Source of the DNA: Chitinivibrionia bacterium
GTDB taxonomy: Bacteria > Fibrobacterota > Chitinivibrionia > Chitinivibrionales > Chitinivibrionaceae
Assembly (NCBI GenBank): GCA_009787445.1
Contig: WRFX01000003.1
Coordinates: 1 to 50,359 of the forward strand
Direction of reading: 5' to 3'
Length of the DNA stretch: 50,359 bases
The notes under the pieces were generated by a model that saw only the letters and a list, made by a program, of their open reading frames with translations, had not been told where the DNA came from and did no database searches. A program made the position numbers and the translations under genes. The number at the start of each line of letters is the position of its first letter. Positions within the stretch are counted from its first letter, which is position 1. Below are positions 19,306 to 29,604 of the stretch, in pieces.

Positions 19306-20844
19306 TTAAAGATTTACTTTAAACGAAATATCCCAAACGTTTCGTAATTCTCTGTCGGTCATAAATTCGTAAGAAATATCGACGTCGACGACTTTTTTTC
19401 TGACGGGAAAACGAACTCCGCCGCCGCAAGTCAAATACCACGGCGTTTCAAAATCCGTAAATATTTCTTTTGCCGCGCCAAAACGCAAACGAACGGGAAT
19501 CGCTATTTGCTGTTCAAGTCCGCCGGCAAATCGCCAATTTTGGTCTCTGTAAAGCGGAATTTTTCCTTCCGCGACAAGCAAAGTCGCATAACTCGCCGTA
19601 AACGAGCCGCCCAAACTCAACGAAGGCGGAGAATTTTCATTATAACGATATTCTTTGTAAATTTCGCTTCCGATTTCCTTTTCCGAAGAACTTGAATTGT
19701 GATAAAAATTAAAAGTCGGAACATTATTAAAAACAAGTCCGAAATCGATATGGTTAGATAATTCTATTAAAAAACCTATGTCCAAGCCGAAACCGTAAGC
19801 CGTTCCGCTTTGGTCGTATTCGCTTCCGCTTCCGCCTGTCGTTCTCGCCGACGAAACGCTTAAATTTGCGCCCGCCGAAAACGGAGGAAGTATCCATAAA
19901 TCCGAAAATCTGTAAGAAGCAAGCGTAGAAAAATACAGTTCCTGATAAAAACTTTCGGGATGTCCGCTGTAAATAAGCGAATGCCCCCAGCCAATTTCTC
20001 GCGTGGCTTTTTCCATAAACGAAGCCGAAACCGTGTTTAAGAGTCCGAATCTGTTTTGATAACTCAAAGACGCTTGCGGTCCGTCTATCCACGATGCGCC
20101 CGCAGGATTGTAAAACGCTCCGTAAGCGTCTTTGGACAGCGCGACGTAGCAATTTCCCATCGCTTTTGCCCGCGCCGATTTTGCAACGGTGCGCATAGAC
20201 GGGTCTATACCGGATAATTTATTATCCATTTTTACTGGCGTTTTTTGAAAATCGTTGCCTATAAGCGCAATTAAAAGTCCGACTCCCATATAAGACGACG
20301 ACGAAATTATCATCGGCTTTATGTTGTTTACTTCTTCGCCGAAATATCTTGTAAGTTCAACTGCGGTCGAAAGCGTGTCTATTTCGTGCATACGAAAAAT
20401 TGCGGTTTTTACGACATCGTCCAAAGCCGCGCCCTGTTCGCCTTGCAAATTGCATTCGTTTACAATTTTTCTACTCGTTACGTCTACCATTTTTAACATT
20501 ACGGCATAACGTTCGTTATTGAAAGCGACGTCGCCCAGAATCATTCTGTCTAATTGAAGCGAAGAACCAAGCACGGCGGCGCAACGCGGTTCGTGGCAAT
20601 ACGACGGAAAATTGCCGCCCATAATTTCGTACGCTTCTTCCATTCTATCCTGCGTGAAAACGTTGTATCTGCCTATCTCTTCAAGCGCGTCGCGAACGCT
20701 TCGCACGGCTTCTACAGCCATAAGCGAATCGCCTGTGTTCGTATAAAGATTAAAAACGCCTATCGGGGTCGTCGTATAATCGCTTTCGGCAAACAAAGCC
20801 GCCGCAAAACATACGCAAAAGAGAGTTAATTTTATATTTTTCAC
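19306..20844 (-). CDS. CsgG-like domain fused to a UPF0164/PorV-type outer-membrane barrel
   Basis: A 512-residue exported protein (signal peptide ending LFAES). Residues about 25-165 form an alpha/beta domain resembling the CsgG/LpoB/FlgT family of helper lipoproteins (VFNLYTNTGDSL, VRDALEEIGRYNVFTQDRMEEAYE, LQLDRMILGDVAF). After a spacer, residues about 225-512 match UPF0164/PorV-like barrels (MGNCYVALSKDAYGAFYNPAGASW, repeated aromatic strands, C-terminal DISFKVNL). In FCB bacteria such barrels serve as docking or shuttle proteins for surface-secreted proteins with C-terminal signals. It lies 21 bases after the giant surface protein and 3 before the amidase, so delivery or anchoring of that protein is plausible. 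The N-terminal assignment is tentative. Confidence 0.75.
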   Translation of the reverse strand: MKNIKLTLFCVCFAAALFAESDYTTTPIGVFNLYTNTGDSLMAVEAVRSVRDALEEIGRYNVFTQDRMEEAYEIMGGNFPSYCHEPRCAAVLGSSLQLDRMILGDVAFNNERYAVMLKMVDVTSRKIVNECNLQGEQGAALDDVVKTAIFRMHEIDTLSTAVELTRYFGEEVNNIKPMIISSSSYMGVGLLIALIGNDFQKTPVKMDNKLSGIDPSMRTVAKSARAKAMGNCYVALSKDAYGAFYNPAGASWIDGPQASLSYQNRFGLLNTVSASFMEKATREIGWGHSLIYSGHPESFYQELYFSTLASYRFSDLWILPPFSAGANLSVSSARTTGGSGSEYDQSGTAYGFGLDIGFLIELSNHIDFGLVFNNVPTFNFYHNSSSSEKEIGSEIYKEYRYNENSPPSLSLGGSFTASYATLLVAEGKIPLYRDQNWRFAGGLEQQIAIPVRLRFGAAKEIFTDFETPWYLTCGGGVRFPVRKKVVDVDISYEFMTDRELRNVWDISFKVNL

Positions 20845-20865: not shown

Positions 20866-23800
20866 CTACTTGAAAAGTATTATTTCTTTCGTGTAGCGTT
20901 TTTTCTCTTTAACATCGTCAATCGTAACGTTTACGAAATAACGTCCGTTTCTGCACATTTCGTCGCCGCGAGTGAAAATTGCGGAGTTGGGTTCAACTTC
21001 GATTTTGTTTGCTCCCGCGCGCGAAAGTTGCTTTCTTCCGTCCCAAAATAAATAATACGTTTCGCCCGGATTAAGCCCGTTCAGTTCCGTATGATACACC
21101 ATAGTTCCTTCGGCGCTGTAAATCGAGACCTTTGCCGACGGCTTATATTTTGTTCCGCTTGCTTTCGGCGTAATTTTTATGCAAGTTCCTTTCACTTCGC
21201 TGTTCATATTTCTAATTTTGAAAGAATAGTCGTTCATAGGCGAAACAAACGGCGAAAACGGATTCGGACTTACTTCGACCATAACGTCCGTTTCGAGTCC
21301 TCTGCCTATAATTCCGAGTCGAATATTCCCGTTAAGTTTGTTTAAAAATTTTTCTATATTAAGCGAAAGCGATTTTTCTTCGCTTTTGTACGTTGCGTTT
21401 TCATCGATAAATCTTTGAGAATCGTCTCGCGCGGGCGACGTTTTCGCCGAATTTTTCGGCAGCGGATATCTCCAAGTAAGAGAATCTTCGTCCCAAACGG
21501 CTATATCCAATTTTGATTCGTCGCTTTGTCCGTTTTTCAAGTCGTTATGATAAATTTCAGGAACGTAAAGTTTGACTTCGGCGTTTAAGTTTTCGTCGGA
21601 ATGCCTTTTTATTTCAAACACGTCCGAAATTATGAAAACATTCCCTCCACTTGTATCGGCGTCCTTTTCTACGTTGTGCAAAATGAAGTTTTTAAGTTCG
21701 GGATTGTCGAGCGTAACTATAATCGGATTTTCGTCGTGTTTAAATTTCAGTTCGGCGGTTTTTTTGTCGTTTGCCGAATAATTTACCGCTTTTGTCGTAT
21801 CGGCATTTTGCATTACGGGATGTGCGATAAGCACGCCTTTTTCGCCGCCCAAACTAAACTCGTGTCGGACTTTGGAATTTATTTGCGCGACAATATACGC
21901 TCTTCCGACGAAAGTAGAATCCGGCTTGAACAAACCGCTTCTTACGTCGAAATTTTTCGCCAAAATCGACGGTTTTATTAGCCACGAAGGCGTTGCCGAA
22001 ACCAGTTCGCCGCTTTTGTCTCTCGCCTCGACGCCAAAAATTACGCTTTCGGTATTTTTAATAAAACTCGAATTTTCTGGTCTTGAACGCAAAACCGCTT
22101 CAATTTTGTCTATTTTGCTGTTTGTAACTTTTACGATAGTTTTTTTGGTTTCCGTCGTACCGTTTAACGAAACGGTGAGTTCGGCTTCTCCTGCGGATTT
22201 TCCCGTAATTATCGCGGAGGCGTTTGCGGGACTTACATTCAAAATTTTAGAGTTGTTTGTACCGAATGAAAATCTGCCGCTTATATCTTTTATTTTTTCA
22301 TAATTCGAGCCGAAATACGCTTCGACATAAACGTCCATTCGTCCGTCCAACGCAAGCGTTATGGAATCGCTGTTTCCCATCGGAAGTACTTCCCAGTGAG
22401 AAATAATTTTGGGGTCTGCCGCTACAAATTTTGTATACGGATATTTTTCGTTGCCGTAAATTGTTCCGTCCGCCGTTTCTATTCTAAAATAATATTCGAT
22501 ATCGCTTCCCGCTTTGCTTCCAAGGTCCGCGTCAAACGAAACGGTTACGTCCGACGGATTTACGTTTGTCGTCGTCGAATCGTATTTGGTTTCGCCTTTC
22601 CGTCTGTAAAACGCTTGCGCTTTTGCAACGGCGACGCCAGCCCATTTTGAAAGTTCAAGTTTCGCGATTGTCGTATCGTTTTTTTCCGATTTTTTATACT
22701 TAAACGGCATAAGAATTACGTCGGTTTCTTCTTCATTATTTACAGTTAAAGCCCTTTGAACGCAGGCGATTATAGTAGAATCCGAACTTGTCGCTCTCGC
22801 CAAATAACGAACTCCAAGCGCGGCGTTTTCAAGTTTGTTGTTTTCGTTGTCCAAAGTTTGCACGAGCGGCGAATATACCGTAATAATAATAGACGGGTCG
22901 TGCGCGGTTTGTTCGGGGCTTGTTTTCGCCGTCCAGATAATTGTCGCGTTTGCCTCTTTTGTGTGAATATTTATAAACGAAACGTCGTGCTTGGGGTTAC
23001 CCGCACGAAATTTCCCGCCTTCGACGGTTGTTTCGTCGCTTGTCGTTTTTTCTGCCTGCAAAGTTTGCTCAACAAAATCTTTTGTTCGTCCGTTTCCGTT
23101 TGCAAAAATTTTGTAATTGCCTGCGGGAATCCTGAAAAACGTAAATTTCCCGTCGCTGCCGGTTTTGGCGACGGCGACCTGAACTTGGTCGCTTGTTCTT
23201 ATAAGCGATACCGAAACGTCGGAATGTACGGGAATAACTTTACCCTCGATAGTCGCGAATGCGTTTATATCAAAATTCTGCGAATAAGTATTTCCTTTTT
23301 CAATTCCGTTTGTCGCGTTTGTGAAAGCGTTGTTAAGCGCATCAAATCCTTCCGCCGTAAATTTCAACTTGTAATTAAAACCTGCGCCGGATTTTGACGG
23401 CACGCTTACGGCGTATGTTCCGTAAACTTTGTCGGTGGTCGTCGTAATTATTATTGAATCTTTTTTATTCGTTGTGTCAATTACTTCCAATTTCGCATTT
23501 ATCACAGCCGCGCTGTTTTTTACAAGTTCTCCCGTAGAATTTGCGAGCCAACTCACTCCGTAAAGCGTTCCTTTAAGCATTGCCGCGCCGCTGGGCAAGG
23601 TAATTTGCATATTTTGGCTCGACGAAACCGTAACCGTTCTTTCAACCGGAGCAAGCCCCGTTTTTGTCGCCGTTATTTTGTACACTCCCGCGGCGAGCGA
23701 AAACGAAAATCTGCCGTCGCTGGGGGTTGAAAGTAGCGACGCAATTTCAGTATTTCCGTCTCCGCTCAATATTCTTACGGTTGCGCCCGTTACGGGATTT

Positions 23801-25530
23801 CCATCTTCATTTGTAACGATTCCCGAAAAAGTATGCGGATTTCTTTTTATTTGAAAATTCGCCATTTTATTCGTTTCGTTCGGCAACTGCACGCGCTGCG
23901 ATTTATTTATAAAATCCTGCCTGCCGACGGTTATCGTCCAATCGCCAAAAGAGCAGTTAAGCACGTAATTTCCATCGGGAAGCGACTGCGTTTTTACCGT
24001 GTCGCCGTTGTCGGAAACCGCGATGATATTAGCCAAATTTACGGGAACTCCCGTCGTAGAATCCGTGATTTTTCCGTAAATCGAAGAAAACGGTCTGCTA
24101 AGATAAAATTCGACATACGCCGTTTCGCCGTCGCGTATTTGTACTATTTTATTTTCGCTGCTGTAACCTTCTTTTTTTATTGAAATTCTGTGCGTTCCGA
24201 CGCTGCGGCTTCTTTCCGCGCCTCCGGTATTGTCGGTGAAAAAGAAAATCGTCTCTTCAAGCGAGCCCTGCAAAACTTCCGCTTCTATTTCGGCAAGAGC
24301 AAGTTCCTGCGTAAATGTATGCCCGCCGAAAATAATTTTTTCATACGCTTTTACGTTAATAGTTCCCGACGGCGAATCGTAGTGAAATTTCGACAAATCG
24401 CCCGCCTGTCCGCTTCCGTCGCTATACATCGTAACTACGCGCCACGAATATTCGTTGTCGCTCAAAATATCTTTCGCGCTCATAGAAAGTTGCGCTTCGG
24501 AGGTATTGCTTACGACAGGAAATTGCCCCGCCGTAACTTCATCGCTCCAAACCAATATTTGCACGTTCACTCCGCCCGGTATCGGCGCTTGCGTATAAAC
24601 AAAAACCTTATATATGTTTGCCGTCGGGTCTAAATTTTTCCATCTGAAAGTAATATTTCCGTTATTGTCGGTATGTTTCAACGTGTCGGTTTTGTCTTTA
24701 TTCGCCGATACGGGAAAAACGTTTTCAGGCGTTTTTCTATTCGCCGCGCCGGGTCCCAAAGCGTTTGGACTTATACCGAAAAATCCCGGTATAGACACGT
24801 CTCCCGCAGTAAACGCAGGACTGTTGCCGTAATTGTTAAACACGAACCACGAATAATCTTTTCCCGGCGAAAGCGGCGGGGGAGCGGTCGCAAAAATTCC
24901 CGACTGGTCTGGCTCGCCGTATGTTACGCTGTTGTCTTTCGTTATGGTTTGCCAAATCATCGAAACGCCGTTTATCGATTCGAGAGACATTCCGTCTATC
25001 GCTCCGCTTATGTCTATTTTTTCGTCGGAAAGAAGAACGTGCGAATATGGAACTCCGCTCGGTTTTGTCCACGAAAGCGTGGGAGTGGTATTATTTACCA
25101 ATCCGCTTCTTGGACTTATTATATTGCTTTGCGCGGAATGTTTTACTATAATTTTTACTTCGTTTGAAATTCGCTTTTTTGCGGTATTGCTAACGATATT
25201 GCTAACGATTACGTAATTTATTCCCGCTCTAAAATTCGTATTTTGCGGCAATTTAAAAGAAATTTGTTTTACGAGAGGATTATACGAACTAACGACGATT
25301 GGAGAAGCGGTACCTATTTTTTCGGAATAATTTGCAATATTGGCGCCGCCGGGATTTCTGCTGAACCAAATGTCGCAATTTCCCAAATCATCGTCAATAT
25401 CGACAAATCCTATGGTTATCGTCGTGTCGTTTTTTACGACCCAAGTCGGATATTCCACAATGGGAAAACTGTGCTGTCCAAAAATAGAAGCGGCAAACAA
25501 TAAAACAAAAATCCTAATCATATTCTTCAT
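20866..25530 (-). CDS. 1554-residue secreted multi-domain surface protein
   Basis: A signal peptide (MKNMIRIFVLLFAASIFGQ) is followed by Ig/Fn3-like modules (about 130-400; repeated P-x-L-SW and YSWRV patterns). A PEGA-like segment (about 425-495) comes next, then at least four carboxypeptidase-regulatory-like modules (for example IYGKITDSTTGVPVN, FSGIVTNEDGNPVTGATV, IEGKVIPVHSDV), a BIG2-like module (about 1140-1205) and acidic spacer regions. The C-terminal domain of about 120 residues starts VEVSPNPFSPF and ends YTKEIILFK, the FlgD/type-A-like sorting module seen in FCB surface proteins. No catalytic site is evident, so it is likely an adhesin, a scaffold or a carbohydrate-surface binder. 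It sits second in a four-gene leftward operon, 20 bases after a barrel gene. Confidence 0.85.
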   Translation of the reverse strand: MKNMIRIFVLLFAASIFGQHSFPIVEYPTWVVKNDTTITIGFVDIDDDLGNCDIWFSRNPGGANIANYSEKIGTASPIVVSSYNPLVKQISFKLPQNTNFRAGINYVIVSNIVSNTAKKRISNEVKIIVKHSAQSNIISPRSGLVNNTTPTLSWTKPSGVPYSHVLLSDEKIDISGAIDGMSLESINGVSMIWQTITKDNSVTYGEPDQSGIFATAPPPLSPGKDYSWFVFNNYGNSPAFTAGDVSIPGFFGISPNALGPGAANRKTPENVFPVSANKDKTDTLKHTDNNGNITFRWKNLDPTANIYKVFVYTQAPIPGGVNVQILVWSDEVTAGQFPVVSNTSEAQLSMSAKDILSDNEYSWRVVTMYSDGSGQAGDLSKFHYDSPSGTINVKAYEKIIFGGHTFTQELALAEIEAEVLQGSLEETIFFFTDNTGGAERSRSVGTHRISIKKEGYSSENKIVQIRDGETAYVEFYLSRPFSSIYGKITDSTTGVPVNLANIIAVSDNGDTVKTQSLPDGNYVLNCSFGDWTITVGRQDFINKSQRVQLPNETNKMANFQIKRNPHTFSGIVTNEDGNPVTGATVRILSGDGNTEIASLLSTPSDGRFSFSLAAGVYKITATKTGLAPVERTVTVSSSQNMQITLPSGAAMLKGTLYGVSWLANSTGELVKNSAAVINAKLEVIDTTNKKDSIIITTTTDKVYGTYAVSVPSKSGAGFNYKLKFTAEGFDALNNAFTNATNGIEKGNTYSQNFDINAFATIEGKVIPVHSDVSVSLIRTSDQVQVAVAKTGSDGKFTFFRIPAGNYKIFANGNGRTKDFVEQTLQAEKTTSDETTVEGGKFRAGNPKHDVSFINIHTKEANATIIWTAKTSPEQTAHDPSIIITVYSPLVQTLDNENNKLENAALGVRYLARATSSDSTIIACVQRALTVNNEEETDVILMPFKYKKSEKNDTTIAKLELSKWAGVAVAKAQAFYRRKGETKYDSTTTNVNPSDVTVSFDADLGSKAGSDIEYYFRIETADGTIYGNEKYPYTKFVAADPKIISHWEVLPMGNSDSITLALDGRMDVYVEAYFGSNYEKIKDISGRFSFGTNNSKILNVSPANASAIITGKSAGEAELTVSLNGTTETKKTIVKVTNSKIDKIEAVLRSRPENSSFIKNTESVIFGVEARDKSGELVSATPSWLIKPSILAKNFDVRSGLFKPDSTFVGRAYIVAQINSKVRHEFSLGGEKGVLIAHPVMQNADTTKAVNYSANDKKTAELKFKHDENPIIVTLDNPELKNFILHNVEKDADTSGGNVFIISDVFEIKRHSDENLNAEVKLYVPEIYHNDLKNGQSDESKLDIAVWDEDSLTWRYPLPKNSAKTSPARDDSQRFIDENATYKSEEKSLSLNIEKFLNKLNGNIRLGIIGRGLETDVMVEVSPNPFSPFVSPMNDYSFKIRNMNSEVKGTCIKITPKASGTKYKPSAKVSIYSAEGTMVYHTELNGLNPGETYYLFWDGRKQLSRAGANKIEVEPNSAIFTRGDEMCRNGRYFVNVTIDDVKEKKRYTKEIILFK

Positions 25531-25550
25531 AATTTTTATTTACTCCGTTT

Positions 25551-26975
25551 TCAAAAGTTATAAACTAATCCGGTTTTTAACGCAGGCAAAGGCAACAAAT
25601 CCAATTCGAGCATAAATTGTATTTTTGTTCCTATCACTCCGCCGCCCGAAAGCACGGGAAGCATAACGCCTTTTCCGTAACGAATAAGAAACGGCTGGTC
25701 TTGACTGCTTAATACTTTTTTGCCGTCGTCCAAAAAGTCAAGGTCAAAATCAATCGAAATTATTCCCAAATTGCCGTAAAACCAACCGAGTTTTCCGTTT
25801 ATCAACAATAAATGGTCTAAACTCATACCCATACGAAAATCAAGTCCGTCCTGTAAAAATTCAGGCGGTTCGTCGCCCGTCTTTTTTCCAATATTTCGGT
25901 CGGTCAATCCAATATACGTTTTGCCTATGAATTTTGAATACGAAACCGAAAGATGTTCGGGTATAATATTGTACTTAAACGTTAAAACGTGCGGAAGTTC
26001 CCATTTCATTTTGGTGTTTGCGCTTAAATCGACCGTTTGCGTTTCGCTTTCCATAAATTTGTTCAAACTGTCAATTATATATTTTTGGTCGCTCAATTTT
26101 TCTTTGTCAAAACTAAAAGTAGAGGCGTTTATAAAAAACGGCAAAACGTATTTTCCCGATAGCGACCCCTTCGCTTCGTCCTTAAACATAAATCTCATAA
26201 CAAGGTCAAAATTCCAAAATCTTGCGGCAAACGTGGGAGTCCAGCGTTCAAGCGAATATTCGCCGTTAAGCGAATTTTTTAACGAATAATCTATAGGAAC
26301 CGACGGACCGGGCATACCTTCTACTTTTGTGCTTACTTTTCCGTAAATATCCATATCTATGTGGGCGTTCGCGTTAAAATAAAATCTGTGTCTGTGCAAA
26401 TTTAAGCCGACCGTAACAAGTTTGTTTATCTTATAAACATAGCCGAAAGTCATCGCTTCCCAGCCCAAAGAAAAATCGATGGGAATGTTAAAACTTCCGC
26501 GCAAAAGCATTCCTATATTTTCGTTTATACTTCCGTCTTCGTTTGTAAGCTCGTACTCAAAACTCGGAATTCCCGTTTGATTTTCGTATTTAAGCGACAT
26601 CACGTTCATATGAGAAAACGTAGAAACGCCGCCAAGCATAGGAACGTCGACTTTTATGGTGGTGTTTGCAAATTGCCGCGCCGCCATATTCGGCATAAAT
26701 TGTTCTCCGTCTTTGGAAAGATTTATTTTCGCGCTGTTAAGAATAGTTTGGGTAAGTTCGTAACTCGGTTTGAATTTTACGGGAATATTTACGGAATAAT
26801 ATCCTTTTGCGTTTTCAAAATCGACGTCGAGCGGCGATTTTAGATAATCGTAGTCAAAGCCGATTCCCAAAGAAGCGTTAAAATCGGGAGTGGGAAGAAG
26901 TTCGCCTAAATCTTGCGCCAAAGCAAAAATTGTTCCAAAAAATAAAAAAATACATACTTTAATAAAAAATTTCAT
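25551..26975 (-). CDS. Predicted outer-membrane beta-barrel, first gene of the envelope operon
   Basis: A 474-residue exported protein (signal peptide ending FALAQ) with regular amphipathic strands across its length, for example YYSVNIPVKFKPSYEL, FSLGWEAMTFGYVYKI, LNLHRHRFYFNANAHIDMDIYG and KLGWFYGNLGIISIDFDLDF. The C-terminus is LKTGLVYNF with terminal Phe, typical of BAM substrates. I do not recognise a named family. It opens the leftward operon with the giant surface protein, the CsgG/UPF0164 protein and the amidase. A run of ten C lies 65-74 bases before its start codon, where promoter elements are expected, so expression may be phase-variable. Confidence 0.75.
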   Translation of the reverse strand: MKFFIKVCIFLFFGTIFALAQDLGELLPTPDFNASLGIGFDYDYLKSPLDVDFENAKGYYSVNIPVKFKPSYELTQTILNSAKINLSKDGEQFMPNMAARQFANTTIKVDVPMLGGVSTFSHMNVMSLKYENQTGIPSFEYELTNEDGSINENIGMLLRGSFNIPIDFSLGWEAMTFGYVYKINKLVTVGLNLHRHRFYFNANAHIDMDIYGKVSTKVEGMPGPSVPIDYSLKNSLNGEYSLERWTPTFAARFWNFDLVMRFMFKDEAKGSLSGKYVLPFFINASTFSFDKEKLSDQKYIIDSLNKFMESETQTVDLSANTKMKWELPHVLTFKYNIIPEHLSVSYSKFIGKTYIGLTDRNIGKKTGDEPPEFLQDGLDFRMGMSLDHLLLINGKLGWFYGNLGIISIDFDLDFLDDGKKVLSSQDQPFLIRYGKGVMLPVLSGGGVIGTKIQFMLELDLLPLPALKTGLVYNF

Positions 26976-27039
26976 TAACGTCTTTCTCTACTTTTTAACG
27001 TTTTTTAAGTTTTTCCGTTAATAAAATAATTATTTCCCT

Positions 27040-27049
27040 CCCCCCCCCC
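27040..27049. repeat. Homopolymeric C10 tract in a divergent promoter region
   Basis: Ten consecutive C (preceded by CCCT) lie in an otherwise very AT-rich 209-base interval (26976-27184) between the leftward barrel gene and the rightward lipoprotein gene. The tract is 65-74 bases from the first start codon and 136-145 from the second. Slippage of such G/C runs in promoter spacers is a classic phase-variation mechanism. On the leftward strand, AT-rich -10-like sequence (TAATTATTTTAT) follows the G-run directly, so tract length could set promoter spacing. Variation itself cannot be seen in one sequence. Confidence 0.85.
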
Positions 27050-27138
27050 GACGAAAAAAAATGAAAAAAATGTGAAAAAAAAGTTTTTTTTACGATTTTG
27101 GAATAAAATTAAAGCATAAATTTGCGGAATATTGTATA

Positions 27139-27161
27139 TTTACATTTGGAATTGATGTAAA
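27139..27161. promoter_or_regulatory. Dyad upstream of the lipoprotein gene
   Basis: TTTACAT (27139-27145) and ATGTAAA (27155-27161) form a perfect 7-base dyad around a 9-base centre, 24 bases before the GTG start. It could be an operator or a leader hairpin in front of the AAAGGAG site. The role is inferred. Confidence 0.35.
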
Positions 27162-28182: not shown

Positions 28183-29604
28183 TTACAAAATAGAACCGAC
28201 TTTATACTCTTTCGCTTTTGGAAATTTTTTGCTCCAAATTTCAACTTGTTTTGCAAACTCGTCGACCTGTTCTTTTGCCGAACCTACCAAATCCTCTCCT
28301 CTGTTTATAATTGCGGTCAACTCTTCTATGGAAAGTTTTAATTCGCTTTTTGCCAAACGTTCAAGCAAATCGTTTTTTGCTATTTTGCCGTTTCGCAAAT
28401 CTCTAACCGCCGAAACCGCGTTTTCCTTAATAATTTCGTGCGCCGTTTCGCGACCTACGCCTTTTTTAACGCTTTCCATAAGAATAGTCGTTGTCGAAAG
28501 AAAAGGAAAATAATATTCGTTTTCGCGTTTTATTACCGCTTCAAAAACTTCCATTTGATTTAAAACGCTCAAAAATGTTTCAAAAAGTCCGTCGGTCGCA
28601 AAAAAAGCGTCCGGCAAAGCTACTCTTCGCACTACGCTGCACGAAACGTCGCCTTCGTTCCACTGATTTCCCGAAAGTCCGAAAAGCATCGCGACGTATC
28701 CCGACAAAATTACACGAAGTCCGTTTATGCGCTCGCAAGAACGACTATTCATTTTATGCGGCATTGCGGAACTTCCTACTTGTCCTTTTGCAAAGCCCTC
28801 GCTTGCGGTTTCGTTGCCCGCCATTATTCGCAAAGTCGCGCAAAAACTTCCCGCGCCGGCGGTCAAATTATAAAGCGAACTCACGACTTCGTAATCGAAC
28901 ATTCGCGGATAAACCTGCCCGACCGCGTTCATAGTTTTGGATATTCCCAAATGTTTCGCCAAAGAATTTTCAAGTTTTTCGACTTTTAATTTATCGCCGT
29001 CAAAAAGCGTGAGCAGGTCTAATTGCGTTCCGACCGCGCCCTTTATTCCGCGAACCGCATAATTTTCTATAATTCTGTCCAAATTTTCCAAGCCCAAAAG
29101 CAACTCCTGACCAAACATCGCGATTCGTTTGCCGAAAGTCGTCGGTTGCGCCGCGACGTTATGCGTTCTCGCGGTAATTATCAAGTCCCTGTATTTAACT
29201 GCCTTTTCGCTCATTTTAACGAGCGCGCAAATTGTTTTTTCGCGAATAATTTTAAGCGATTCAAAAATTTGCAACTGCTCTACGTTTTCGGTCAAATCGC
29301 GACTTGTCATACCTTTGTGAATATGTTCAAATCCCGCCAAATCGCAAAATTCTTCAATTCTCGCCTTAACGTCGTGTTTCGTAATTCTTTCGCGAGAATC
29401 AATACTTTGCAAATTTACGTTTTCTTTTACTTTTTCGTAATTTTCAATCGCTTCTTGCGGAATATCCAAACCCAATTCTTTTTGCGATTTCATAACGGCA
29501 ATCCAAAATTCGCGTTCCAAAATTACTTTGCCCTCGCTCGACCATATTTTTTTTATTTCGCTTCCCGCGTATCTTTGCGCCAAAACATTTTCAATTTTGT
29601 CCAT
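28183..29604 (-). CDS. purB: Adenylosuccinate lyase
   Basis: A 473-residue homotetrameric lyase of the fumarase/aspartase superfamily. It splits SAICAR and adenylosuccinate to fumarate plus AICAR or AMP in purine synthesis. The signature GSSAMPHKMN (residues about 277-286) carries the flexible catalytic loop. GMTSRDLTEN and ARTHNVAAQPTTFGKR (the His region), GAVGTQ and the C-terminal PurB-type tail are present, and length is as expected. It is monocistronic, and its start is 118 bases from the divergent mraY start. Confidence 0.95.
   Translation of the reverse strand: MDKIENVLAQRYAGSEIKKIWSSEGKVILEREFWIAVMKSQKELGLDIPQEAIENYEKVKENVNLQSIDSRERITKHDVKARIEEFCDLAGFEHIHKGMTSRDLTENVEQLQIFESLKIIREKTICALVKMSEKAVKYRDLIITARTHNVAAQPTTFGKRIAMFGQELLLGLENLDRIIENYAVRGIKGAVGTQLDLLTLFDGDKLKVEKLENSLAKHLGISKTMNAVGQVYPRMFDYEVVSSLYNLTAGAGSFCATLRIMAGNETASEGFAKGQVGSSAMPHKMNSRSCERINGLRVILSGYVAMLFGLSGNQWNEGDVSCSVVRRVALPDAFFATDGLFETFLSVLNQMEVFEAVIKRENEYYFPFLSTTTILMESVKKGVGRETAHEIIKENAVSAVRDLRNGKIAKNDLLERLAKSELKLSIEELTAIINRGEDLVGSAKEQVDEFAKQVEIWSKKFPKAKEYKVGSIL

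Follow-up and report, generated by a model that had tools for sequence, protein, structure and literature searches.

The window analysed here, a stretch of 50,359 bases, contains a four-gene operon that begins with a gene for a barrel-type outer-membrane protein and is faced by a divergently transcribed lipoprotein gene (Table 1). The genes of the operon are separated by gaps of 20, 21 and 3 nt, and Pfam searches identified Amidase_2 and CarboxypepD_reg repeats in its products. An earlier note on this DNA had described the operon as encoding a barrel, a 1554 aa surface protein, a CsgG/UPF0164 protein and an amidase. The barrel, the 1554 aa protein and the amidase stand; a CsgG domain was not confirmed in the operon by Pfam, and the 512 aa protein resembles PorV/PorQ of NCBIfam (E-value 1 × 10−14, 54.8 bits, below the cut-off of 90). 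From signal-peptide-like N-termini, the CarboxypepD_reg repeats and this sub-threshold PorV/PorQ match, we infer that the operon products are exposed at the cell surface. No relative of the 1554 aa protein was found in the PDB, and AlphaFold runs from single sequences returned no usable model for either the barrel or the 512 aa protein (pLDDT ∼30). The barrel, the giant CarboxypepD_reg protein and the PorV-like protein (20866–26975) form an order-wide operon, the barrel being without a named family. Elsewhere in the window, an adenylosuccinate-lyase-like gene (28183–29604) has its best named matches (≤66 %) in a Melioribacteraceae MAG, Verrucomicrobiota and Bradyrhizobium, a scatter that suggests horizontal transfer.

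Table 1. Genes and predicted promoter elements of the barrel operon and its divergent neighbour
Feature	Coordinates	Strand	Remarks
AmpD-like N-acetylmuramoyl-L-alanine amidase, 167 aa	18799..19302	-	Pfam Amidase_2
512 aa protein, PorV/PorQ-like C-terminal part	19306..20844	-	Sub-threshold NCBIfam match
1554 aa surface protein, carboxypeptidase-regulatory-like (CarboxypepD_reg) repeats	20866..25530	-	Syntenic in 20/20 relatives fetched
Barrel-type outer-membrane protein, 474 aa, first operon gene	25551..26975	-	Detected in 36/41 genomes, nearly always single copy
Predicted -10 box TATTTT, barrel operon	27023..27028	-	PWM score 9.6; 11 nt downstream of tract (G strand)
C10/G10 homopolymer	27040..27049	-	Spacer between -35-like and -10 boxes
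-35-like TTTTCG, barrel operon	27052..27057	-	Weak motif from 113 non-leader promoters; 2 nt before tract
Predicted -10 TATATT, divergent lipoprotein gene	27135..27140	+	PWM score only 0.8; conserved in sister species G001
Divergent lipoprotein, 306 aa	27185..28105	+	Divergent pairing conserved within family

Inspection of the sequence revealed a run of ten C on the plus strand of the divergent interval, flanked as AATTATTTCCCT-C10-GACGAAAAAAAATG and read by the operon strand as G10-A-GGG. The note's description of this site was borne out: the run is present, the interval is very AT-rich (∼76 % A+T), and 64 and 135 nt separate the tract from the barrel start codon (26975) and from the GTG start of the lipoprotein gene (27185), respectively. 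The longest C/G run elsewhere in the window is 6. When the decay of the window's own run lengths is extrapolated for C and G together, runs of ≥10 are expected ∼8 × 10−5 (C) plus 1.5 × 10−4 (G) times per window, or ∼2.4 × 10−4; the tract thus exceeds both chance and a homopolymer threshold of at least about 8 bases. It is non-coding, with all frames on both strands closed 7–67 nt past the tract and no in-frame start codon preceding it.

Promoter elements were scored using a -10 PWM derived from a promoter-leader element that recurs in the same genome (ATATTATATT / ATATTATTTTATT; 26 copies used), and a -35 profile drawn from 113 other, non-leader promoters. The top PWM match on the barrel strand of the divergent interval was TATTTT, predicted in silico to follow the tract directly in the direction of transcription; sites scoring ≥8 occur at 0.36 per kb over both strands. 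Counted from the hexamer, the -35 region of this genome carries TTG at position -24 or TTCG at position -25, either of which places a G at -22, and the motif is weak (best column 0.4 bit). With the -10 box 11 nt after it and the -35-like TTTTCG 2 nt before it (TTTTTTTTCG-TC-G10-AGGGAAATAAT-TATTTT), the tract fills the spacer of the predicted promoter. The G of TTTTCG lies 24 nt from the hexamer at G10 and would lie at 22 nt, the genome consensus, at G8; TTCG is accordingly 2 nt too distant in the assembled form and takes its consensus place in the shorter one. At fixed spacing, the -35 score was 2.69 for G8, 0.94 for G9, 0.80 for G10, 1.17 for G11 and negative for G0–G6, compared with a median of 1.57 and an upper quartile of 2.77 in real promoters of the genome; TTTTCG is therefore optimal at G8, where its score nears the upper quartile, albeit against a -35 motif that is itself weak.

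We consider it fairly probable that the homopolymer serves as a contingency tract within the spacer of the promoter that drives the barrel, 1554 aa, PorV-like and amidase genes, and that its slippage would alter expression. Slipped-strand mispairing would change the number of Gs, and with it the distance between TTTTCG and TATTTT; G8 would give the spacing normal for this genome and is predicted to be strongest, the assembled G10 would be 2 nt too long and weaker, and expression of the outer-membrane operon would vary from cell to cell within a population. Use of this promoter, its -35 element, variation in tract length and an effect on expression are what we infer here; length variation in particular is drawn from the type of tract and from near-identical paralogous leaders with different tract lengths (see below), rather than from the window site itself. 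The note had proposed a phase switch acting on the surface operon and the lipoprotein gene alike. The position of the tract in a predicted -35/-10 spacer and the tracts at other surface genes agree with the former, but the lipoprotein gene drops out as a target, as its predicted -10 lies 86 nt from the tract and is conserved in the sister species G001, which is itself tract-free.

The tract could alternatively be a binding or structural element whose spacing is immaterial, either overlapping the -35 and a regulator site or forming a G-quadruplex at G11-A-G3, although we regard this as quite improbable. The operon strand does read G10-A-GGG, and a -35 hexamer placed at the canonical 18 nt spacing would, in the G10 form, overlap the tract in part. 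In opc of Neisseria meningitidis, poly-C covers the -35 (summarised in PMC7864442); both loci combine a homopolymer in the -35 region with the lack of a strong -35 in the form assembled. Unlike opc, however, a -35-like box remains just upstream here, at a distance that is canonical at G8, and the sense strand is G; furthermore, no regulator site was identified.

Comparison with related genomes bears on how the operon might be tuned. The barrel was found in 36 of the 41 genomes searched, and in all 20 relatives whose loci were fetched it adjoins the 1554 aa protein, with the 512 aa protein inside the fetched stretch in 17 of them; no amidase homologue was seen at these 20 loci, and the lipoprotein is the divergent neighbour in G001–G004. 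The operon is thus core rather than an accessory surface locus. The tract itself is absent from the sister species, and the operon promoters of the other 19 relatives hold no C/G run >6, so that the search for a variable tract in relatives, proposed in the note, came back empty in 20/20. As an order-wide core operon that exists without the tract in every relative fetched, it is likelier to undergo graded change in expression than on/off switching, and full off-switching may be costly. Counts of C9 tracts across the order (40/41 genomes) were rejected as evidence, as the C8/G8 runs examined in the higher-GC relative G003 lay mostly in housekeeping coding sequence. Among 21 genomes searched, a Fib_succ_major domain occurred in 12, with up to 80 copies in one relative.

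The sister species retains the same anchors without a tract, as CATTTTTTTATG-21nt-TATATT, and its 21 nt from G to hexamer are what G8 would give. By this sequence comparison, the tract took the place of the ordinary spacer in a pre-existing promoter. It could have done so as a near-neutral, unstable homopolymer that arose in this lineage within a tolerant spacer and hardly affects expression, whether because the -35 is weak or because an activator or the UP-like upstream T-tracts dominate. The absence of the tract from all 20 relatives, the weak -35 signal and the core nature of the operon fit such an origin, which we nevertheless think unlikely: the chance expectation for the window is 2 × 10−4, the tract sits exactly between both boxes where G8 would restore the sister-species spacing, and the genome is rich in tracts of the contingency type.

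This last point emerged from the draft genome of the bacterium (G000; 2.69 Mb, 231 contigs), in which we catalogued 81 C/G runs of ≥8 where ∼0.8 would be expected, with an excess at surface and restriction-modification (R-M) genes. Isolated tracts are mostly G-runs in the coding sequence of exported proteins, either in signal peptides a few codons past the start (contigs C21, C53, C108, C109 and C147) or further inside the gene (C4, C29, C184 and a GH19 chitinase on C28/C57); the signal-peptide tracts of predicted lipoproteins and secreted proteins (G8–G11; L206:6655, L219:7711, L245:7480, L246:910 and L257:3264) are in frame as assembled. The genome also encodes Por-secretion tails besides the GH19 chitinase; together with the Fib_succ_major domains noted above, these features suggest that the bacterium belongs to the Fibrobacterota. 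The hsdS gene of Neisseria gonorrhoeae (NgoAV; e.g. PMC9577141) is phase-variable, and similarly a G9 tract here parts two Methylase_S (HsdS) domains lying in different frames (C166, L260:4238–5294; and C174). This type I R-M specificity gene is probably phase-variable as well; it is a locus separate from the window tract and serves as genome context only. On contig C138 (L255:1751 and L255:6926), two similar loci with near-identical flanks carry C10 and C12, and in the C10 form a short pre-tract ORF is out of frame with a 565 aa membrane-protein ORF behind the tract. Only one of the 81 tracts, that of the window, is immediately followed by a -10 box, making this the sole promoter-spacer case seen in the genome. 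Loss of mismatch repair was rejected as a cause, given that mutS is present. With dozens more C/G runs at surface genes of the same genome, random surface variation, as in Neisseria and Treponema, is probable for this bacterium.

That the window tract or its length is an artefact of assembly or sequencing seems very remote. The draft does contain many contigs ending in C/G tracts, so that a tract length read at a contig end is a minimum, and on contig C32 (L212, 19337) a G16 tract interrupts serC with unrelated sequence beyond, likely an assembly chimera through the homopolymer that calls for caution over tract lengths in this draft. The window tract, however, lies 23 kb inside its contig, and its flanks belong together, given that G001–G004 retain the lipoprotein and barrel genes as a divergent pair with a similar interval length.

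Many of the remaining tracts belong to a repeated leader element. Its peptide of ∼37 codons (MKNKIKKMQNNFAILVRTALYFILMNNKVRGDGTPPP) has 52 matches in G000 and none in 39 of the 40 other genomes, the sole match, in G006, being weak (E-value 0.04); the leader motif had no match in IMG/VR, and Rfam returned tRNAs only. The element runs from a promoter through the ∼37-codon ORF, a poly-C tract and a terminator-like hairpin to a gene (e.g. C71, L228:9520–10000; C96, L238; C106, L244; C124, L252; C126:1833, L253), with lipoproteins, secreted proteins and a type IV pilin-like protein encoded downstream. At least 27 copies run into a C9–C27 tract. Of 15 copies whose downstream sequence is available, 14 have one open frame that runs from the tract up to the start codon of the following gene, 142–316 nt away; this frame mostly ends in the TGA of ATGA. 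Across these 14 copies the open frame has 0 stops in 771 codons vs 61 and 40 in the other two frames, whose first stop falls at a median of 15 nt; as the frame was picked for being open, the zero is partly by construction. Dinucleotide shuffling put the chance of such a frame mostly at 0.02–0.27 per copy, values that cannot simply be multiplied because the copies are related. The argument rests on copy number and stop position, rather than on the lack of stops. The open frame encloses the hairpin (CGCGGT-TTTTC-GTCGCG with a T run, or GCGAAAAA-TATTC-TTTTTCGT), whose covariation is weak (2 pairs changed on both sides).

Six copies have a long tract in full, and each of them is out of register in the assembly; the paralogous leaders C62 (C9) and C78 (C10) differ in tract length at 92 % identity over 435 nt. 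The C126:1833 copy has C6 only and no such hairpin was seen; it reads through to the ATGA of the lipoprotein gene, as if fixed on. The leader is apparently a frame-switched translational-coupling module. A single register of the tract would carry leader translation past the terminator-like hairpin to a stop overlapping the downstream start codon, and slippage would switch the gene by translational coupling or anti-termination of the leader, with no frameshift of the gene itself. The GeneTack survey took an upstream stop overlapping a start codon to mark translational coupling and homopolymers to mark phase variation (PMC3711429). Unlike those classes, the leader element joins both, with the tract determining if the leader ORF extends as far as the following start codon, and we found no paper describing this combination in one element. 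At the window tract the leader-ORF mechanism was rejected, given the stops in every frame within 7–67 nt and the lack of an in-frame start. We put forward, as a tentative extension with slightly less than even odds, that the tract in the window belongs to a programme of surface phase variation spanning the genome, the main device of which would be new: a dispersed, 52-copy leader whose tract register gates downstream genes by translational coupling or anti-termination.

For the window tract itself, the best explanation appears to be phase variation by the mechanism of porA (N. meningitidis) and tp0126 (Treponema pallidum), in which poly-G lies between -35 and -10 (PMC7864442). In each case poly-G lies in the spacer of a promoter that serves an outer-membrane protein gene, with an optimum spacing predicted. 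Unlike these systems, the target here is a conserved multi-gene operon in an uncultured bacterium, and the predicted optimum is a spacer of 18 nt, where the -35 is a weak TTTTCG. The setting is a spacer tract in the promoter of an outer-membrane operon that is core to the order, in a genome rich in C/G contingency tracts; we found no paper describing phase variation in this bacterial group, probably the Fibrobacterota. If true, the leader family would represent a novel link between slippage and expression, and simple-sequence phase variation would extend to uncultured polysaccharide degraders that are no known pathogens, in which pressure from phages or protists may drive such variation.
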